64,000 nucleotides of DNA, from NCBI RefSeq assembly GCF_030512175.1, contig NZ_JAULBL010000002.1, positions 866,149 to 930,148 on the forward strand, read 5' to 3'. The stretch comes from Paeniglutamicibacter sulfureus (lineage in GTDB: Bacteria; Actinomycetota; Actinomycetes; Actinomycetales; Micrococcaceae). The notes beneath the pieces are model-generated. The model made no database searches and was not told the origin of the DNA. It was given only the letters and a program-made list of their open reading frames with translations. Positions 2,618-43,012 of this stretch are shown here, piece after piece (within the stretch, counting starts at the first letter, position 1; each line of letters starts with the position of its first letter). The position numbers were made by a program, and so were the translations under genes.

Positions 2618-2743
2618 TGTCTGTACCGAGGACCTTTCAGTGGGGCGAATGCTCTGGGCGGGGAATCGGGGTGGGCGGTGGGCGGGGCCTTGGGGTGCCC
2701 CGCCCACCTGCGGATGTCCGGAACCGCTATGGGGGGAGCGGTC

Positions 2744-4609
2744 CTAGACGTGCGTGTGGGAGTGCGCCCCGGGGCCGGTGACCACGGGCGCCTCCTCGAG
2801 GATTTCGACGGTGCCCTTGGTACCGTCCACGCGCAGCATCTGGCCGGTGCGGATGGTGGTGGACGCGCTGCCGGTCCCGGTGACGGCCGGCAAACCGTAC
2901 TCGCGGCAGACGATGGCAGCGTGGCTCATCATCCCGCCAATGTCGGTGACCGTGGCCTTGATCTTGCCGAAGATCGGGCCCCAGCTCGGGGCGGTGATCG
3001 GGGCAACCAGGATCTCGCCGGCCTGCACGTCGGAGAGGTCATCCGCGTGCATGACCACGCGGGCCATGCCCTCGACCAGTCCGGGGGAGGCGGCCATGCC
3101 CTTGAGCACGCCCGACTCGGAATCCTCGTCCCCGCCCAGCCACTGCTGAACTTGTTCGGTGGTGATGCCCCAGAGCATCCGGGTGAACGGCTCGGTGATG
3201 GCCGAGGGCGGGGTGTTCAGTGCCGGCGCCGGCCGTGCGGTCTTCAGTGCGTCGACGATGCCGCGGCGGCGCTCGATCTCCTGCGGCCACACCACGTTCC
3301 CGATCGGGTCGCCGGCGCCGATGCCCCAGGAAGTGACGAGGTCGAAGAGCACGTCACGGACCTCGTTTCGGCCCAGGTAGAGCATGTCCTCGGGTTCGTT
3401 CCATAGGCCCTGGGCGTGCAGCATGCGGGACAGTTCGCGCACCTTGCGCCAGAACACGCCCATGGTCCAGTGCTCGATGTAGAAGTTGTGGTTTTCCACG
3501 TACGGGTAGGCGGTGGCGGCCAGGGTGCGCTTGGCGTCGAAGACCTCGCGGACCTCGGGATCCAGCAGGTCCCGGTACTCCTCGACGATGCGGTCCTTCT
3601 CGGCGATCAGCTTGTCGGTCGGGCGCATGATGTTCGCCCCGCCCTGCAGACGGTGGATGTAATCGGCGATGAAGCCAAGCGGGATCTCCTGGTGTTCGAT
3701 CCAGTACTTGTCGTGCCCGTAGAAGCCGTTGCCGATGGTGAAGTTGAACCACGGGTCCTTGGCCTCCTCCCAGCGTGCCAGCCAGCGCTCGCCGGAGGGC
3801 GAGGATGCGATGGCTGCAAGCGTGGCTGTCGGGTCGTCGGTGTTGGAGAACGCGCCGGAAAGATCCAGTTCCACGGCCAGTGCCGCGAGTTCCTTCAGTT
3901 CATCGTCGGGCTTGAACAGTTCCATGTCCACGCCCTGGACCATGGTGGCGATCGACTGGTCGGGGATGTTGGGGAATACTTCCTTGCAGAAGTTGAAGAA
4001 GTCCAGGTAGGCGATGTAGCCCAGGTTCAGGAATTCGAAGTGGTATTGCCAGTTCTGGTAACAGAGCTGGATCAGCCGGTCGTAGTTCTCCAGCAGCACC
4101 TCCGAGCCGTCCTTGGCCTTGCCGGAAAGGATGTCCGCCATCGGGACCTGCTCGGGCAGGGCCTCGAAGCTGAGGGACTCCATCTCGCTGATGGTTCCCT
4201 TGACCTTGATGTGCCAGGCCTTCAGGAGCTCTTCCCAATTGGCGAAGTAGTGGCCGATGCGGGCCTCGAAGTCAGGGACGCGGGCGGCGATCTGCTCGCT
4301 GGGCACCGGAAGCGGAGACATATAGAGGTAGCCGAGGTGGATGCGGAAGTCGATGCCGTTGGCATTGGGGATCATCAGGTGGCGGGCGTTGTACTGGCCC
4401 AGGCACTTGACGGCGAATTCCCCGCCGATGGTCTCGAACGGCTTGAAGACGGTGGGCCAGTGCTGGGAGTCGCAGAACCAGAACTTTTCGTCTTCCTCGG
4501 CCTTTAGTGCGTCCTGAAAGACCAGGTAGTACGGGTAGAGCTCCTCCCAGCCCTCGGCGCCCGGGGGAACCTGGAGATCGGAAGGCTTGGGAAAGGATTT
4601 CATGCTCAT
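2744..4609 (-). CDS. creH: PEP-utilising phosphotransferase subunit with swivelling His domain
   Basis: This 621-residue protein ends in the mobile phosphohistidine domain of PEP-utilising enzymes: GGMMSHAAIVC with the catalytic His at residue 563, then GLPAVTGT. The rest is a large substrate-binding region. The ATP-grasp half of a PEP synthase-like enzyme is the separate gene upstream. This split (about 70 kDa plus 40 kDa) resembles phenylphosphate synthase of Thauera and the CreH/CreI pair that phosphorylates p-cresol in C. glutamicum. Expected role: transfer of phosphate from phosphohistidine to a phenolic hydroxyl. GAAAGG lies about 12 nt before the ATG at 4609. The domain call is firm; substrate and symbol come from gene order. 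Confidence 0.8.
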   Translation of the reverse strand: MSMKSFPKPSDLQVPPGAEGWEELYPYYLVFQDALKAEEDEKFWFCDSQHWPTVFKPFETIGGEFAVKCLGQYNARHLMIPNANGIDFRIHLGYLYMSPLPVPSEQIAARVPDFEARIGHYFANWEELLKAWHIKVKGTISEMESLSFEALPEQVPMADILSGKAKDGSEVLLENYDRLIQLCYQNWQYHFEFLNLGYIAYLDFFNFCKEVFPNIPDQSIATMVQGVDMELFKPDDELKELAALAVELDLSGAFSNTDDPTATLAAIASSPSGERWLARWEEAKDPWFNFTIGNGFYGHDKYWIEHQEIPLGFIADYIHRLQGGANIMRPTDKLIAEKDRIVEEYRDLLDPEVREVFDAKRTLAATAYPYVENHNFYIEHWTMGVFWRKVRELSRMLHAQGLWNEPEDMLYLGRNEVRDVLFDLVTSWGIGAGDPIGNVVWPQEIERRRGIVDALKTARPAPALNTPPSAITEPFTRMLWGITTEQVQQWLGGDEDSESGVLKGMAASPGLVEGMARVVMHADDLSDVQAGEILVAPITAPSWGPIFGKIKATVTDIGGMMSHAAIVCREYGLPAVTGTGSASTTIRTGQMLRVDGTKGTVEILEEAPVVTGPGAHSHTHV

Positions 4610-4690
4610 GGTGGTGGATGCCTTTCAAAAGATGCTGCTGCGGAGTTGGGGGGGGAAAAGCGGCGAACGGTGGTGGGTCGGGCAACGCGA

Positions 4691-5785
4691 CTAGGATGCG
4701 GTGTTCATCAGCGAGGACGTGATCGAGGAGAAGTTGAAGCCCGAACCCAGCCCGAGGGAGGAAGCGTAGCCGCCGGCGTCCGGCTTAACCGTGGACTTGG
4801 ACGAGTGCACGGTTTCCGGGCGGGACTGTAGCAGGAGCAGGTTTTCGCCTTCGGGCAGATCCGCATCCAGCGCCCACTCGATGTCCTGCGGGCAGCCGTA
4901 GTGCTTCTCGGCGCGCTTGGCCAGCTGCGCCACCAGGGCCAGGTCCGCATCCGAGAGGCAACGCACCGCGCGGCGCTCTTCACTGACCTCGACCTCCACC
5001 AGGGAGTTGGTGGCCGGGTCGGGAATGAGTTCGGCGTGCTTGGCCCCGATGTGCTCGGTGATGATGGCCAGGGTGACCTTGTCCAGCTGGATGTTGTCGG
5101 GGGTGACGGTGCCGGAAACGACCATTTCGCCGACCCCGTAGGAGGCGTCGATGGTGATCTTGGAGCGGTCCCCGTTGGTGGGGTCCAAAGTCATCGCCAC
5201 GCCGGCTGCGGCGGAGTTGACCATCTTCTGCACGACGACCGCCATGGACAGGCCCTCGTCGGGGATGTTGTTCTTCAGCCGGTACAGGATGGCCCGGGAG
5301 GTGTAGAGCGAGGCCCAGCAGGCGCGGATGTGCTCGGTGACCGCATCGTAGCCGTTGAGCCAGAGGTAGGTGTCCTGTTGCCCGGCGAAGGAGGCATCGG
5401 GAAGGTCCTCCGCGGTGGCCGAGGAACGCACCGCCAGCGGCACCTCCACGGTGAAGTTCCCCTGCAAGGTGGCGTAGGCGTCCTTGGTGACTTGGCGCAG
5501 GGCGGCGGGCACCGGGCGCTGGGTGATCATGGAGCGGATCGCGGCACTGGCGGCGTCCACGGCGTTCACGTCCTCCGGATCGACGCCGGCCAGCAGAGCG
5601 TTGATTTCGGCGGTAATGCCACCTTCCATGAAGGCGTCGAAAGCTGCGGTGGTGACGACGAATCCGGGAGGCACGGGCATCCCGGCCGCGGTCATCGTCA
5701 CCAGCGAGGCACCCTTGCCGCCGAGGTTTTCCAGCTTCGGGTCGGCACCGCCGTCGAAGAATTCAATGAAGTCGTTGTTGCTCAT
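4691..5785 (-). CDS. creI: ATP-grasp (PEP/pyruvate-binding) subunit of a split phosphotransferase
   Basis: This 364-residue protein is the N-terminal half of a PEP synthase-like enzyme. LGGKGASLVTM at 21-31 carries the conserved Lys, RSSATAEDLP sits at 120-129, and the C-terminal QDIEWALD and LLLQSRPET belong to the ATP-grasp fold. It should use ATP to phosphorylate the swivelling His of the partner subunit encoded 81 nt downstream. The frame is open for 56 codons further upstream, but the ATG at 5785 overlaps the P450 stop as ATGA, which fixes the start by translational coupling. It could belong to another split dikinase, but the neighbours favour a phenol-phosphorylating pair. Confidence 0.8.
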   Translation of the reverse strand: MSNNDFIEFFDGGADPKLENLGGKGASLVTMTAAGMPVPPGFVVTTAAFDAFMEGGITAEINALLAGVDPEDVNAVDAASAAIRSMITQRPVPAALRQVTKDAYATLQGNFTVEVPLAVRSSATAEDLPDASFAGQQDTYLWLNGYDAVTEHIRACWASLYTSRAILYRLKNNIPDEGLSMAVVVQKMVNSAAAGVAMTLDPTNGDRSKITIDASYGVGEMVVSGTVTPDNIQLDKVTLAIITEHIGAKHAELIPDPATNSLVEVEVSEERRAVRCLSDADLALVAQLAKRAEKHYGCPQDIEWALDADLPEGENLLLLQSRPETVHSSKSTVKPDAGGYASSLGLGSGFNFSSITSSLMNTAS

Positions 5786-7068
5786 GCCTGGGATTCCTTC
5801 CAGCTCACGTTGACGTATTCGGGGACCCGAAAGGACAGGTTCTTGCGGAACTCGATGCCCTCGCCATCGATCAGCTCGAGCCCCGGGATCCTGGAAGTCA
5901 GTTCCTCCAGGGCGATCTTGGCCTGCAGCTTGGCGAGCATGTTGCCCAGGCAATAGTGGATGCCGAAGCCGAAGGAGAGGTGTTCGCGGGCGTTGGTCCG
6001 GGCGATGTCGAAAGCCTCGGGGTCCTCGAAGCGGGCTTCGTCGCGGTTGGCCGCACCCATCAACAGCAACAACTCGGCGCCTTCGGGAATCTTGACCCCG
6101 GCGACCTCGGTGTCCTTAAGGGCCTTGCGGCGCCAGCCGACGATGGAGCCGGCGTAGCGCAGGACCTCGTCGATGGCCGCGGGGATGGCCTTGGGATTTT
6201 TGACCACTTGCTCCCAGGCCTCGCGGTGGGCCAGAAGCACGCGCACGCAATTGGAGATCAGCGTGGTGGTGGTTTCGTGGCCGGCGAAAAGCAGGGAGTA
6301 GAGCAGCGAGGCGATCTCGTGGTCGCTGATTTCCGCGCCCTCGGACTGGGCCTTGACCAGGTCGGCGGTGAGGTTGTCCCCGCCGTGCTCGTGGGCGTGG
6401 ACCACGAGGCGCATGCACTCTGCCCAGTACTCCACGAGGTTGTGGGCATGCGGGATCTGCTCCTCGTCGCTCAGGTCTCCCCAGGTCATGGCGGCCCGGG
6501 AATCGCTCCAGCGCTTGTAGGTGTCGACTTGGGAGACATCGGCGCCGATGAGGGTGAGGATGGTGATGGTAGGAATGGCGTAGGCCAGATCCTTGACGAT
6601 GTCGCCGGTGTTGGATTCGCGCGCCAGCATGGTCTCGATCGATTCGATGACATTGGCGCGGATGGAGGGTTCCAGGGCCTTGAAGCGGCGCGGGGTGAAC
6701 GCCTTCTGTGCGATGGCCCGGATGCGGGTGTGCTCCGGCGGGCGGCGGGCAGAGAGCCCGGAGTAGGTGGTGAAGCCGCCGTCGTTCATGATCTTGGTGG
6801 CCTGCGGACCGCGCTTGCGCACCGGGGCTTGGGCGTTTTCCGAGGAGAAGGTTTCCCAGTCCTCAAAGACGGCCTTGACGTCGTCGTAGCGGGTGACCAC
6901 GTAGAGCCCGACACGTTCGTCGAACATCACGGGTTGTTCGTTGCGGAGGTTCGTGTAGGAGGGAAACGGGTTTTCCATGGTGAACGGTTCAAAACCGTGG
7001 TGGTCGGCCGGTGCCGTGGCGCCGTGCCCCATGGGACAAACCCCGGCTGCAACATTGCTGCTGGACAT
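5782..7068 (-). CDS. creJ: Cytochrome P450
   Basis: This 428-residue soluble bacterial P450 has an I-helix AGHETT at 262-267, the ExxR motif EVLR at 301-304 and the haem-binding loop FGFGIHYCLG at 366-375 with the Cys373 ligand. The start at 7068 is supported by AAGGAG 8 nt upstream; an in-frame ATG at 7131 has no such site. It is the first gene of the operon and overlaps the next by ATGA. In the C. glutamicum cre pathway, CreJ oxidises the methyl group of a phosphorylated alkylphenol, the phosphate serving as an anchoring group. The same role is likely here because reductase, ferredoxin and phosphotransferase genes all follow. Confidence 0.9.
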   Translation of the reverse strand: MSSSNVAAGVCPMGHGATAPADHHGFEPFTMENPFPSYTNLRNEQPVMFDERVGLYVVTRYDDVKAVFEDWETFSSENAQAPVRKRGPQATKIMNDGGFTTYSGLSARRPPEHTRIRAIAQKAFTPRRFKALEPSIRANVIESIETMLARESNTGDIVKDLAYAIPTITILTLIGADVSQVDTYKRWSDSRAAMTWGDLSDEEQIPHAHNLVEYWAECMRLVVHAHEHGGDNLTADLVKAQSEGAEISDHEIASLLYSLLFAGHETTTTLISNCVRVLLAHREAWEQVVKNPKAIPAAIDEVLRYAGSIVGWRRKALKDTEVAGVKIPEGAELLLLMGAANRDEARFEDPEAFDIARTNAREHLSFGFGIHYCLGNMLAKLQAKIALEELTSRIPGLELIDGEGIEFRKNLSFRVPEYVNVSWKESQA

Positions 7069-7119
7069 GGAACGGACTCCTTGAGGAAAGAAGATCGGGG
7101 TTGCACTACCCGATTGTGG

Positions 7120-7129
7120 GTTGCGCAAC
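7120..7129. promoter_or_regulatory. Palindrome GTTGCGCAAC upstream of the P450 operon, possible IclR site
   Basis: A perfect 10-bp palindrome lies about 51 nt upstream of the P450 start, in the only intergenic space (7069-7201) between the IclR gene and the operon it probably controls. No convincing -35/-10 pair could be fixed, so its placement relative to the promoter is open. Confidence 0.35.
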
Positions 7130-7182
7130 ATTCATTGCCTCAAGTGTTACCCATGACACATGCGAAGGGTGCAGAACCATTC

Positions 7183-37615: not shown

Positions 37616-38218
37616 GTGGCTCAGAAAGAAAAGAATCGCAAGATCCGGGCTGTACTAGCCGGAGGACTGGTGCTTGGTATTGGTGCGGCGGTGACGCTGG
37701 CTGCTTGGAGTGATTCCGAATTCGCGAAAGGGACTTTCGGCGCCGGCCATTTCAACATGCAGGGCAGCCTCAACGGAACAGCATTCAGCGATCATCCAGT
37801 GGGGACGCCGGCGCAGCTAGCCTTTCCCCTCGACAAGCTCAGCCCCACTGAAACTGTTGCGGCGCCGTATGTGCTCCGCCTGGACAAAGACACGACCAAC
37901 GATGCGACGGTGCAAGTCGTCTCGGCAAACGGCGAAGGCTCCGCCGAGGCCAAGCTCAGCTATGGGATTGTTCAGGTGGAATCGTATGGTGCCTGCAGTC
38001 CGACCGCAACAGGTACGCAGCTCGTCCAGGCCGGTACAGCACTGGATGCGGTCACGGACGCACAAACTTTCGAGCTGAGAAAACCCGCGCCCGAGGCCGC
38101 TCCTGGCGATCCTGGCGCTGACGTGTTCCTGTGCATCCAAGTGAAGGCCGCTTCGGATCTTGACCAGAATACTACCGCCGTCGGTACCTGGGGATTCCTC
38201 GGCGAATCGAAGCCGTAA
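37616..38218 (+). CDS. Exported protein with SipW-type signal peptide (TasA/camelysin-like), copy 1
   Basis: This 200-residue protein begins with the long basic signal peptide of SipW-dependent proteins: KIRAVLAGGLVLGIGAAVTL then AAWSDSEFAKGTF, where cleavage is expected around AAW. The mature part is rich in beta-prone segments and has two Cys that could form a disulfide (GACSPT, VFLCIQV). The start is a GTG at 37616 with AGGGGGAG just upstream; the open frame beyond it looks non-coding. It is 6 nt from the next gene, which has a nearly identical signal peptide. Function is unknown; related proteins form surface fibres or are matrix or surface proteins. Confidence 0.78.
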   Translation: MAQKEKNRKIRAVLAGGLVLGIGAAVTLAAWSDSEFAKGTFGAGHFNMQGSLNGTAFSDHPVGTPAQLAFPLDKLSPTETVAAPYVLRLDKDTTNDATVQVVSANGEGSAEAKLSYGIVQVESYGACSPTATGTQLVQAGTALDAVTDAQTFELRKPAPEAAPGDPGADVFLCIQVKAASDLDQNTTAVGTWGFLGESKP

Positions 38219-38224
38219 ACATAG

Positions 38225-38860
38225 ATGAGACTATTTATGTTGCGGGAGCGAGGGCACCGGTTGATTCGCCTGCGGGCGGTACTCGCCGGCGGTCTCGTGC
38301 TCGGGGTCGGTGCTACGGCGACACTCGCCGCGTGGACCGATGAAGAACACTCGGCCGGGTCGTTCAAAGCCGGCACATTCTCGATCGTCGGCAGCACGAA
38401 CGGTACTGACTTCAGCGACCATCCTGCCGCGTCCGGAGCTTCTCTTGCATTCTCGCTGCCTGCGGCCGCCATGGTGCCGGGCACGACGGTGTACGCGTTG
38501 TACTCGGTGAAGACGGCGAAGACGCCAGTTCCGAGTGTCGCCGGTTCAGTGCATCTGACCGCTGACGCGGCCAATTTTAGCGGGTTAGGCAATTACCTTC
38601 ACTACGGCGTCAAAGCGATTACGCAAACGACTTGCGACGCCATCACCTTTGCCCATCCCACTTCCATCGTCGTCGTCGATTCCGGATCGAAGTTGAATAC
38701 GGGTGCCGACGTAGGGATTGCACTGGCCGCGAATGGGGACTCCACGGTCAATTACTGTTTCGCTGTCACATTGCCCGCGGATGCATCCAACGAGGCCCAG
38801 GGCGCTGCGCTAACGGCACGGTGGACTTTCGCGGCAACCACCGATCCCGCAGGGAATTGA
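38225..38860 (+). CDS. Exported protein with SipW-type signal peptide, copy 2
   Basis: This 211-residue paralogue of the upstream protein has the signal segment RLRAVLAGGLVLGVGATATL then AAWTDEEHSAGSF, differing from copy 1 at only a few positions. After it both proteins share NGTxFSDHP. The rest diverges apart from two Cys (TTCDAI, NYCFAV). The near-identical leaders with divergent mature parts point to tandem duplication followed by divergence, with the leader kept for recognition by the signal peptidase encoded 1 nt downstream. No function assigned. Confidence 0.78.
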   Translation: MRLFMLRERGHRLIRLRAVLAGGLVLGVGATATLAAWTDEEHSAGSFKAGTFSIVGSTNGTDFSDHPAASGASLAFSLPAAAMVPGTTVYALYSVKTAKTPVPSVAGSVHLTADAANFSGLGNYLHYGVKAITQTTCDAITFAHPTSIVVVDSGSKLNTGADVGIALAANGDSTVNYCFAVTLPADASNEAQGAALTARWTFAATTDPAGN

Positions 38861-38861
38861 C

Positions 38862-40061
38862 ATGAGCAGACGCGTGCATGGCGTCGGAAGGTTCCTTTGC
38901 GGTGCCATGTTGAACCTGGCCGCAGTGGGTGGAATCATCTGCCTGGTACTGGTTGGCCTGGCCTTCGTGTTCGATACAACGCTGATCATGTTCAAGACCG
39001 GTTCCATGAGCCCCACGATTCCGGCCGGTTCCCTGTCTTTGGTGCGGGAGATCCCGGCGACCGAAATCAAGGTCGGGGACGTCGTGACGGTGGAGCGACC
39101 GGCGGCTCTGCCCATCACGCACCGGGTCACGTCGGTGGCAGATGGGTCGACAAGTACCGAGCGGATCATCACCATGAAGGGCGACGCCAACGAGGCCGAA
39201 GACCCGTTCCCGTATGCGGTGAACACCGTCCGGACTGTCCTCGCCTCAGTACCCAATCTGGCTTATGGCGTCGTTTGGCTGTCGAATCCATGGGTGATGG
39301 CCGTTCTCACGCTCGGTGCATCGGCATTGGTCACCTGGGCCTTCTGGCCGCGGGATCCGTCGGATCTGGGTGCATATGAGCAGGAAGCTCTGCTTCCCCT
39401 GCCGGAGCCACCTGGAAATGGTTCTCAGTCTGGACTGACACTGCTCATTGCCCCCTTGGCATTCGGCCTCGCTTTGGCCAGCCCCACCCCGGCGGTCACA
39501 GAGGACGTGATCACCAGTGGCCACCTGAAAATGATCTCGATCGGTGACCAAGCGGCCATGGCCCGTCTGGCTCCCGGTGAACCCGTGCAATGGCAAGTCG
39601 GCGTTTCGGCTGCGGAGTCCGAGCCCGGCGAGGTTCGGATCCAACTGCGCGGTGATGGGAACGCTGGGCTGGGTCTGAATGCCATCATTCGGTCTTGCGA
39701 TCGACGGTGGGTTGAGGGGGACTGCGAAGGGGAAGCCGACCAAGTCCATAGCCCTGGTCCGATTGCTGTCGACGGAACGAAGCGGCAACTGACGGCGATG
39801 TCTGTGGCTGAAGAGCGCTGGTTGCTTTTCGACTTGTGGCTGCCGAGGAACAATGCTGCAGAAAGGACCGAAAAATCCGTTCGTTTGCAGGTTCACGCCA
39901 CCGGATCTGGCGACGACGTCACAGCTTCCCCCGGGCCGATCGATTCATTGGCAGCAACCGGAGCTAACCCGCTTTTACCCTTACTTGCAGCGGCGCTCTC
40001 CATCGGTTTCGGCCTGGCGCTGGCCGGCTTCGCAAAACAGTGGAGGAAACGGAACCGATGA
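38862..40061 (+). CDS. sipW: SipW-type signal peptidase I with C-terminal LAATG sorting-like domain
   Basis: This 399-residue protein has two parts. Residues 1-175 are an ER/SipW-type signal peptidase I with two membrane segments: nucleophile Ser in FKTGSMSPTIPAGS, the catalytic His (instead of Lys) in LPITHRVTS, and the MKGDANEAEDP block. Residues about 190-360 form an extra extracellular-looking domain with a hydrophobic entry segment. It ends in LAATG (363-367), a hydrophobic helix and the basic tail KQWRKRNR, the layout of a cell-wall sorting signal (LAxTG suits class E sortases). It probably processes the SipW-type leaders of the three flanking proteins. Its stop overlaps the next start (ATGA). 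Confidence 0.8.
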   Translation: MSRRVHGVGRFLCGAMLNLAAVGGIICLVLVGLAFVFDTTLIMFKTGSMSPTIPAGSLSLVREIPATEIKVGDVVTVERPAALPITHRVTSVADGSTSTERIITMKGDANEAEDPFPYAVNTVRTVLASVPNLAYGVVWLSNPWVMAVLTLGASALVTWAFWPRDPSDLGAYEQEALLPLPEPPGNGSQSGLTLLIAPLAFGLALASPTPAVTEDVITSGHLKMISIGDQAAMARLAPGEPVQWQVGVSAAESEPGEVRIQLRGDGNAGLGLNAIIRSCDRRWVEGDCEGEADQVHSPGPIAVDGTKRQLTAMSVAEERWLLFDLWLPRNNAAERTEKSVRLQVHATGSGDDVTASPGPIDSLAATGANPLLPLLAAALSIGFGLALAGFAKQWRKRNR

Positions 40062-40621
40062 GTCGCATTGGTCCCCGTAGGGATGCCACGCGACGGCGAG
40101 GCTCCGGCCGCTTTCAACGTTGTGCCCTTCTCGTTGCGGGCGCTGGGCTTCTGATTTCACTGGTGCCGCCCACCATGACGGCGGCCAGGTGGACAGATGC
40201 CGAGCACTCATCGGCCAGTTTCAAGGCAATGACCGTGCCGGCGCCCATCATCGACACTTGCACGGCAGAGAGCATTCTGGTCAGCGGGAATCTTCTCACC
40301 CCCAGTGTCACTGTCACCTGGCACTATCCGGCCACTGGATACTCGCTGGACAACACAAAATTCTGGGCAGGACCCACTCTGGCAAATATCCAAGACGTGT
40401 CGAGAGATGGTGTCGTTTCGACGACCGGCCCGGTTGCTGGCCGTTACACCAGCACATTCCAGGGACCCATACTGGGTGGGCTGCTCGGCGGAAGCGCGGA
40501 AATAGGAATATCCACCGAGCACACATCGAGCTGGTCTTCCGAAAAATCTACAGCCCACATAACTTTCCCACTGGTGGTAGGGAAGAGGTCTTGCCCTTTC
40601 GTCAACGCAATGGGAGGGTGA
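40058..40621 (+). CDS. Exported protein with SipW-type signal peptide, copy 3
   Basis: This 187-residue protein opens with a very basic n-region (SRIGPRRDATRRRGSGRFQR), a hydrophobic stretch (CALLVAGAGLLISLVPP) and the SipW-type boundary TAARWTDAEHSSASF, like the two paralogues upstream. The mature part (about 140 residues) is unlike them and has a Cys pair (DTCTAES, KRSCPF). GGAGG lies well placed before the ATG at 40058, which overlaps the peptidase stop, so it belongs to the same operon. No function assigned. Confidence 0.75.
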   Translation: MSRIGPRRDATRRRGSGRFQRCALLVAGAGLLISLVPPTMTAARWTDAEHSSASFKAMTVPAPIIDTCTAESILVSGNLLTPSVTVTWHYPATGYSLDNTKFWAGPTLANIQDVSRDGVVSTTGPVAGRYTSTFQGPILGGLLGGSAEIGISTEHTSSWSSEKSTAHITFPLVVGKRSCPFVNAMGG

Positions 40622-41669: not shown

Positions 41670-42509
41670 CTACGCAGCCAGTGCCTGGGCCCGGTATTTC
41701 ATCGGGCTCAGGCACTCGAGCGTTAACGAGATGCGGTCATAGTTGTACCAGTGGATGTAGTCGTCGAGCTCGGCGGTGAACGCCTCGACGCTGGTGTGTT
41801 CGTGGTGGTGGAACATCTCTTCCTTCAGGTGCCCGAAGAAGTTTTCCATCACGGCGTTGTCCAGGCAGTTGCCCTTGCGCGACATGGATTGGGTCATGCC
41901 GGCGTCGGCCAGCAGCCTCTGCCAGCTGGCGTGCTGGTACTGGAATCCCTGGTCCGAGTGCACCATCGGCGCCTCGCCCGCGGCCAGGGTCCCGATGGCC
42001 TCGCTAAGCGATTGGTTGGCGAAGGCCACGGTCGGGGACTGCGACACCGAGTAGGAAACGATCGAGCGGTCGAACAGGTCCAGCACCGGCGAAAGATAGA
42101 CCTTCCTGTCGGCAATCTTGAATTCGGTCACGTCGGTCACCCACTTCAGGTTCGGTGCCTCGGTGTCGAACTGGCGCTTCAGCAGGTTTTCGGCGACCTT
42201 GCCGACAGTGCCCTTGTAGGAGGCATACCTTCGCTTGCTGCGGACCTTGCAGACCAGGCCCTCGGCGCGCATCAGCTTCAGCACGGTCTTCTTCGCCACC
42301 TGCCACCCGCCGCCGAGCAATTCGGCGTGGATGCGGCGGTGCCCGTACCGGCCCATGGCCTTGGTGAAGATCTCGTGGATCCGTGCGCGGAGCTCCGCGT
42401 GCCGGTCCGGTGCCTTGAGCGCGGCCTGGCGGTGGAAGAACGTGGAGCGGGGAAGCCCGGCAGCGGCCAGGAGCAGGGGCAAGGGGTGGGAGGCCTTGAG
42501 GGCGATCAC
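41670..42509 (-). CDS. IS3-family transposase OrfB (DDE integrase domain)
   Basis: The 279-residue frame encodes the catalytic half of the transposase. It has an HTH_21-like region (GRYGHRRIHAELLGGGWQV) and the rve core with Asp in WVTDVTEFK, Asp in MVHSDQGFQYQ and Glu in DNAVMENFFGHLKEE. The listed start is a GTG at 42509, but the frame is open further upstream to the A7 run at 42554-42560. It is therefore most likely made as an OrfAB fusion by -1 frameshifting, as known for IS150 and IS911. Confidence 0.92.
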   Translation of the reverse strand: MIALKASHPLPLLLAAAGLPRSTFFHRQAALKAPDRHAELRARIHEIFTKAMGRYGHRRIHAELLGGGWQVAKKTVLKLMRAEGLVCKVRSKRRYASYKGTVGKVAENLLKRQFDTEAPNLKWVTDVTEFKIADRKVYLSPVLDLFDRSIVSYSVSQSPTVAFANQSLSEAIGTLAAGEAPMVHSDQGFQYQHASWQRLLADAGMTQSMSRKGNCLDNAVMENFFGHLKEEMFHHHEHTSVEAFTAELDDYIHWYNYDRISLTLECLSPMKYRAQALAA

Positions 42510-42520
42510 CGCGCTGATTT

Positions 42521-43012
42521 TCAGCGCGGTGGTTGGTTCCTCAAGGCCCGAACTTTTTTTAGGTATGCATTCTCCGCCTGCAGCCGCTGGTTCTCGCGGC
42601 GCAGCTTCTCGAGTTCGGTGGGTCCACCCGCTTCGGCGCCGGAAGCGGTCTTGGGACGGCCCTTGGCCTTGGGACGCAGCCCGTCCTCGCCCTGTTCCCG
42701 GTAGGTCCTGACCCAGGTCCTGAGAAGGTTCGGGGAGCTGAGCCGGTGTCGTTGGGCAAGCTCCATCAGCGTCGCCTCGCCGTCGAGGAACTGGCGGACG
42801 ACCGCGAGCTTGAACTCGAAGGAATACACCTGATTGGTCGGTTTGCTTTCCAACGCTGCCCTACCCCAAATCCTGAACCGTTTCTCGAGCCCACGAACGG
42901 CGTGTTCACCGGCGTTCAGTCTTGAGGATACCGCCTTATGCCCGATTCCCTGCTCGAAAAGATCGACGGCAGCCAGCCGCTGCTCGGCGGTCAATGAACT
43001 ATTTTGACGCAT
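42521..43012 (-). CDS. IS3-family transposase OrfA
   Basis: The 163-residue protein has a helix-turn-helix near the N-terminus (LTAEQRLAAVDLFEQGIGHK) and a second one in the middle (LMELAQRHRLSSPNLLRTWV). A helical Leu/Glu-rich end (LEKLRRENQRLQAENAYLKK) probably lets it multimerise. Two such modules mark the IS150 subgroup. GGGGAG lies 6 nt before the ATG at 43012, inside a hairpin formed with the IS end. The frame crosses AAAAAAA at the LKK codons, the slip site for OrfAB. Confidence 0.92.
   Translation of the reverse strand: MRQNSSLTAEQRLAAVDLFEQGIGHKAVSSRLNAGEHAVRGLEKRFRIWGRAALESKPTNQVYSFEFKLAVVRQFLDGEATLMELAQRHRLSSPNLLRTWVRTYREQGEDGLRPKAKGRPKTASGAEAGGPTELEKLRRENQRLQAENAYLKKVRALRNQPPR
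42554..42560 (-). promoter_or_regulatory. -1 programmed frameshift site (A7) of the IS element
   Basis: On the coding strand the codons are CTA AAA AAA GTT, that is the heptamer A AAA AAA followed by G. After a -1 slip the frame reads on into OrfB without a stop. Confidence 0.8.

Follow-up and report, generated by a model that had tools for sequence, protein, structure and literature searches.

A SipW-type signal peptidase joined to a wall-sorting half in Paeniglutamicibacter sulfureus: a predicted two-in-one precursor

Work on SipW systems has centred on Bacillus and a few other Bacillota, and the role of the anchoring protein in them is still argued. Signal peptidases of the SipW or endoplasmic reticulum (ER) type are marked by a Ser/His pair in place of Ser/Lys (PMC10269814). 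Fibres of TasA are reported to be of the donor-strand type (PMC9674648). Class E sortases accept LAXTG signals (PMC5148588), and a review gives their motif as LAXTG or LPXTG (PMC12445088). Here we describe a SipW locus in a 64,000-nucleotide stretch of DNA from Paeniglutamicibacter sulfureus (contig NZ_JAULBL010000002.1, positions 866,149 to 930,148; hereafter the window), in which four open reading frames (ORFs) lie head to tail on the plus strand: cargo 1, cargo 2, SipW with an extra half, and cargo 3.

The product of 38862-40061 is, from its sequence, a SipW/ER-type signal peptidase with an extra C-terminal half, and it is predicted to act on the cargos. We consider it likely that this one gene yields a two-in-one precursor, from which SipW would stay in the membrane while the other half would be cut free and anchored to the wall by a class E-like sortase. 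In what follows, loci and genomes other than the window's are denoted by L and G numbers.

The SipW peptidase and its sorting signal

The SipW ORF exceeds the TIGR02228 cut-off of 51.85 bits over residues 25-149, and Ser48 and His87 are invariant in 9/9 aligned proteins, as are L363, T366 and G367 of the LxxTG motif. The equivalog model for Bacillus SipW, NF046067, scores the window protein at 40.2 bits, below its threshold of 190. Residues 191-399 run from a third hydrophobic segment through a domain and the LAATG motif to a further hydrophobic segment, the fourth, and a basic tail. A first-pass annotation of this DNA had described a SipW-type (Ser/His) peptidase carrying an extra C-terminal domain of about 200 residues that ends in LAATG, a hydrophobic helix and a basic tail, and this description is borne out.

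The ending was compared among 70 fused proteins (the window's included, L044 omitted as a copy of L043), 67 of which were counted. LxxTG stands 20-60 residues before the end in 56/67, as against 5.7% of shuffled last-65-residue tails; position 2 is P or A in 52/56, at least two K/R lie near the end in 56/56, and peak hydropathy after the motif averages 2.68 (a mean only, with no per-protein threshold). The letters LAATG are preserved in G496, and become LAPTG in L003 and LPPTG in L004. Seven of the 11 misses end in near-motifs (IPVTG, IASTG, FPVTG, VAYTG, LAVSG, LARSG and LSASG). The other four are L051, whose contig ends immediately behind LPSTG; L062, which has no signal and terminates early close to a contig end; L038, with an internal LPATG; and L040, which crosses N bases. 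The three uncounted proteins are L047, which ends in LPQTG, L054, with an LPRTG signal, and L065, truncated behind VAYTG where its contig ends. Conservation of the sorting signal in homologues, on which the first-pass annotation had made its case depend, was thus found.

The genome holds one sortase match (PF04203). Its PDB sequence relatives are 5utt first, then 5go5 and 5go6, which we take to be class E sortases, and lower down others that include SrtE1 (5cuw); on these relatives the single sortase is class E-like.

The internal hydrophobic segment and fused or split relatives

The domain that follows the third hydrophobic segment was modelled with AlphaFold2 (residues 212-362; predicted local distance difference test (pLDDT) 95.0, predicted template modelling score 0.89). 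The model is nearly all-beta, and its N-terminus is already a strand. In a 55-sequence alignment (A3; the window and 54 of 79 prepared segments), Cys 279 and Cys 288 are invariant, which fits an exported domain. No Pfam or NCBIfam family covers this beta-sandwich. Foldseek returned distant, generic beta-sandwiches, 23 of them at E <= 0.001, with TM-scores by query length of 0.24-0.56 among the best 50 listed; toxin entries among them were set aside as generic fold matches of no functional meaning. The domain profile, run against PDB chains at E <= 10, met only Villin (E 0.4) and showed no relation to TapA, and PDB sequence searches with the domain and cargo profiles gave no TapA or TasA match and nothing useful. 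A common origin of this domain and the cargos was also considered, since both are beta-rich with two conserved Cys; profile comparison gave an hhalign probability of 8.9%, and a shared origin is treated here as no more than a possibility.

The third hydrophobic segment is followed by AxA in 64/67 fused proteins, as against 11/67, 14/67 and 19/56 for the other three segments. These stretches are alanine-rich and shuffling already gives 52.0/67, so the argument is carried by register and not by the presence of AxA. An AxA lies within -14..+4 of the start of the domain profile in 67/74 fused and 22/22 split proteins, and in both sets it most often ends at -2 from that start (26/74 and 14/22); the split set includes L115, really a fusion cut by a contig end. 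An aromatic SipW-type motif occurs near the site in 0/74 fused and 0/22 split proteins, and P1' or P2' of AxA is aromatic in 1/67 and 1/22. By this comparison the segment is equivalent, in the same register, to the signal peptide at the N-terminus of stand-alone homologues, and it is predicted to be cleavable.

Fusions of SipW to the LxxTG half are widespread in Actinobacteria. Of 119 genomes searched, 15 have the C-terminal half, the window's own included, and the 55-sequence profile detected it in at least 25 of 394 genomes from the class, a figure that also counts the window's genome; the latter count is a lower bound, at most 10 first-look candidates having been scored per genome. A contig scan with the nine-protein alignment gave 285 relatives, and the best 80 loci were kept: 69 carry a SipW-domain fusion (two in L034, giving 70 frames), 10 have separate frames and one is cut by a contig end, fusions being over-represented in a ranking made with a fused query. 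Of these fused frames, the copy L044 was left out of the tree as well as the sorting count, and L040 crosses N bases. The class-wide sample, with weak matches of about 20-35 bits, was treated separately; its 25 loci besides the window's comprise four fusions, 14 with SipW nearby, five with no SipW found and two in which the domain was not refound.

Separate domain frames with a hydrophobic N-terminus and LxxTG occur at L017, L008, L012, L010, L016, L007 and L015. At the junctions inspected in 15/21 split loci, the domain gene follows SipW and its candidate ATG forms an ATGA overlap in 12, a one-base overlap in two, and lies 5 bp downstream in one. Three Microbacterium strains (Moxy_1, MYb45 and A20 in the tree rows) carry both a fusion and a split pair (L084/L090, L086/L099 and L080/L097), and in L034, from a Glaciihabitans metagenome-assembled genome, two fused copies stand in tandem (2728-4032 and 5806-7167), each with leader frames upstream.

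A quick tree was built from 96 SipW domains, 75 of them fused and 21 split. On it the fused and split labels change at least seven times, two changes being forced by starred branches, and 0/500 shuffles gave a count as low. The two forms have, on this tree, interchanged in one direction or the other at least twice. Since the halves are often separate neighbouring genes in relatives, the joined protein is likely to be cleaved into both while crossing the membrane. The fusion could also be a neutral by-product of stop loss at the ATGA junction, with no added function, an account that is compatible with a precursor and differs from it only in whether the fusion was selected. The ATGA overlaps of the split loci and the presence of both forms in the three Microbacterium strains speak for it, and the persistence of fused forms across several families, including a Micromonospora clade of seven rows, against it; we regard it as a real but somewhat doubtful possibility.

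Other fusions bear on the same question. In L154 and L155, SipW is followed by a further hydrophobic leader (ERTQAAFHGS and ERTLAVWSSS, respectively) and an exported domain, and in L042 a similar second SipW is fused to an exported protein behind the internal leader PAPAQAAFSS. A single N-free frame of 596 residues in L038 joins SipW, the LPATG domain and a cargo whose leader is DTVAAWTDAE. In such a longer chain an inner sorting signal would be of use chiefly after cleavage, and these SipW-cargo and SipW-anchor-cargo chains point to cutting at what would be internal signal peptides. L040 was dropped as a second SipW-anchor-cargo chain because its frame crosses two N bases; it still counts as one of the 70 fused frames and of the 11 misses, and it has a row in the tree. 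L155 also encodes a stand-alone exported protein of the LGETG type (4127-4870, minus strand) with a weak match to the longer domain profile; this is a congener with SipW fused to a cargo at the same chromosomal site.

The precursor and its alternatives

From the architecture, the sorting signal, the stand-alone homologues, the register of the signal peptide and the gene neighbourhood, we infer topology, cleavage, anchoring and a role in fibres as follows. SipW would span the membrane with two helices, with its Ser/His active site outside, and continue into a cytoplasmic linker. The third hydrophobic segment would then act as an internal signal peptide that starts export of the second half. A signal peptidase would cut behind it and leave SipW in the membrane; as no aromatic SipW-type motif is present at the site, this enzyme would probably be the general signal peptidase I. 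A class E-like sortase would join the LAATG half to the wall, and SipW would mature the three co-encoded cargos. By analogy with TasA and BsaA, the cargos may form fibres, of which the wall-linked half would be the anchor or organiser.

Several observations weigh against this precursor. The window protein's own internal signal is among the weaker ones: the preceding 12 residues contain no K/R/H, and the candidate sites are ALA|SP (after residue 206) and TPA|V (after residue 211). The excess of AxA over shuffling is, by itself, modest. The separate domain gene precedes SipW in L008 and L012, and cargo 3 lies between the two. The congeners G004 and G011 have SipW without the domain at the same site (in the stretch fetched), and a base-of-fibre role is therefore not general. 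TIGR01167 (LPXTG_anchor) was not reported for the window protein, and the homologues L017, L008, L011 and L038 score 15.7, 14.6, 14.1 and 14.8 against its cut-off of 15.9. The chains L154, L042 and L038 fall just under the TIGR02228 cut-off (49.0, 46.9 and 48.7 bits). TasA is absent among the best 50 fold matches listed for the domain model, and likewise among the best 50 of 905 listed for the cargo 2 model, and a fold shared by the LAATG domain and the cargos is unsupported by hhalign.

The first-pass annotation had suggested that the enzyme may itself be anchored to the wall or act as the base of a surface fibre. On the wall-anchored reading the protein would stay whole, its internal segment an uncleaved transmembrane helix and its LAATG linked to the wall, with the peptidase tethered between membrane and wall. 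The intact LAATG agrees with this, as do the weak cleavage site and missing positive n-region of the window's internal segment. It is disfavoured by the match in register to the signal peptides of stand-alone homologues, which predicts that the halves part, as well as by fused/split interconversion and by the L038 chain, and we think it unlikely as a general account. In the window's own protein an uncut, wall-tethered form is possible, because its internal cleavage site is one of the weaker ones. That LAATG is unused, the C-terminal part being a membrane-anchored outward domain that helps SipW choose or hold cargos, is improbable: the near-motif endings of seven fused proteins and the unreported TIGR01167 would suit it, and the frequency of LxxTG over shuffled tails, the P/A preference, the basic tails and the single class E-like sortase argue against it.

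The precursor may be one case of a broader pattern. We give about even chances to the view that actinobacterial SipW clusters encode secretory polyproteins, in which a peptidase heads a chain whose later members, a wall-anchored subunit and sometimes a cargo, would be freed at internal signal peptides, with cargo fusions cut by the chain's own enzyme.

Locus, cargos and comparison with known systems

The features of the locus are collected in Table 1. Cargos 1 and 2 are separated by 6 bp, cargo 2 and sipW by 1 bp, and sipW and cargo 3 overlap as ATGA.

Table 1. Features of the SipW locus in the window
Feature	Position	Strand	Basis
Cargo 1, exported, SipW-type leader, GTG start	37616..38218	+	TIGR04088 34.5 bits, cut-off 19
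Cargo 2, exported, SipW-type leader	38225..38860	+	TIGR04088 39.5 bits, cut-off 19; mature part modelled, pLDDT 91.8
Whole SipW fusion ORF, 399 residues	38862..40061	+	ORF; TIGR02228
SipW/ER-type signal peptidase part, residues 1-166, Ser48/His87	38862..39359	+	TIGR02228 65.1 bits; invariant residues
Variable linker, predicted cytoplasmic, residues 167-190	39360..39431	+	Gapped and unconserved in alignment; putative topology
Internal hydrophobic segment, residues 191-211	39432..39494	+	Register comparison: equivalent to signal peptide of stand-alone homologues
Beta-sandwich domain, predicted extracellular, residues 212-362	39495..39947	+	AlphaFold2; 55-sequence alignment
LAATG sorting motif, residues 363-367	39948..39962	+	LxxTG conservation
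Hydrophobic helix and basic tail of sorting signal	39963..40058	+	Sequence
Cargo 3, exported, SipW-type leader by eye, start overlapping sipW stop (ATGA)	40058..40621	+	ORF

Three exported proteins do flank SipW, as first described, with cargos 1 and 2 (2/3) above the TIGR04088 cut-off and the leader of cargo 3 recognised by eye only. The leaders of cargos 1 and 2 are by eye nearly identical (RAVLAGGLVLGxGA.. then LAAW); that of cargo 3 differs (TAARWTDAEHS), and this protein has no TIGR04088 match at E <= 1. Pfam Peptidase_M73 stays below its cut-off for cargo 2 (14.1 against 22.5 bits), and the other cargos have no match to it at E <= 1. The N-terminal stretch of the mature cargo 2 model is less certain and without secondary structure. 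The model has no PDB fold match at E <= 0.001; its weak matches include the Sulfolobus filament 7pnb, CanA, and Csu and type 1 pilus subunits, and the model would be compatible with donor-strand fibres of the kind reported for TasA. In the cargo alignment (A4; two window proteins and 62 of 107 prepared), the W is partly a product of the pattern by which cargos were picked and was not used as evidence.

Among the best 80 of the 285 loci, a loose leader pattern that admits chance frames picked out one or more SipW-type leader frames in the 1.5 kb upstream of SipW in 80/80 and at least two in 70/80; a downstream leader frame (1.0-1.7 kb) occurs in 35/80, and two upstream with one downstream, as in the window, in 32/80.

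The locus lies between a carboxymuconolactone-decarboxylase-family gene and an aminotransferase gene. Across 15 congeneric genomes, this site holds an LxxTG fusion in four (G000, G496, G003 and G008), SipW without the LxxTG domain in two (G004 and G011), SipW fused to an exported protein in two (G013 and G006), and no SipW match at E <= 1e-8 in seven; in G012, one of the seven, no place with both flanking genes was located. The first-pass annotation had also noted a lower guanine-plus-cytosine (GC) content and taken it to suit transfer. At 60.5%, the locus is indeed below the upstream 10 kb (66.1%; whole window 64.7%), but not appreciably below the downstream 10 kb (61.3%), and the transfer argument is weak because this flank has nearly the same GC; the locus also occupies one chromosomal site in several congeners, though with presence/absence variation there. 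A two-ORF transposase (HTH_Tnp_1 and rve; 41670-43012, minus strand) lies between the aminotransferase gene and a thioredoxin gene that follows the SipW cluster. The same genome has a second SipW-type locus (L018; contig C9, 334636-338013), whose SipW lacks the LxxTG half (TIGR02228 77.2 bits) and is accompanied by exported proteins, those upstream of it with the leaders LAVWNKS and LAAWNQTE, the downstream one with ALWTL.

Both families involved, that of the peptidase and that of the sorting signal, are known. The literature searched yielded no account of the fusion, of its domain or of the polyprotein-like variants. For SipW fused to an LPxTG protein in particular, no description was found in the accessible sections of that literature, and the suggestion that the fusion is undescribed stands to that extent. 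SipW-fusion proteins are likely annotated simply as signal peptidase I. With the window gene, the idea that an internal signal peptide splits one bacterial protein into two can be tested directly. Signal peptidase processes viral polyproteins, and if the polyprotein view is true, these clusters would be a bacterial, self-encoded counterpart.

Stand-alone LPxTG proteins near sipW in relatives (for example L017:1369-2082, L088 and L114) share a homologous domain, a signal peptide and an anchor, but are encoded by a separate gene, and NCBIfam gives them only anchor models under cut-offs (seven scanned). Chaplins, the class E sortase substrates of Streptomyces, likewise bear an LAXTG signal with a hydrophobic segment and a positive tail (PMC5148588). 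Unlike the window protein, they have no peptidase half. To our knowledge, their mature domain is unrelated to the LAATG domain. The sipW-bsaABC locus of Clostridium perfringens resembles the window in combining SipW with several exported proteins, one of them polymerising, and differs in that its adjoining srtB is dispensable, no LPXTG is predicted in BsaA and, in the sections available, no fusion is mentioned (PMC7395162). The tapA-sipW-tasA operon of B. subtilis is alike in its dedicated Ser/His-type signal peptidase co-encoded with cargos, in the aromatic residue just after the TasA cleavage site, and in a minor anchoring or assembly protein within the operon (PMC9674648, PMC10151520, PMC10269814). 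Unlike there, the presumed anchor here bears a sortase signal and forms one protein with the peptidase, and the joining of a wall-sorting-signal protein to the processing enzyme in one gene names a candidate anchor.

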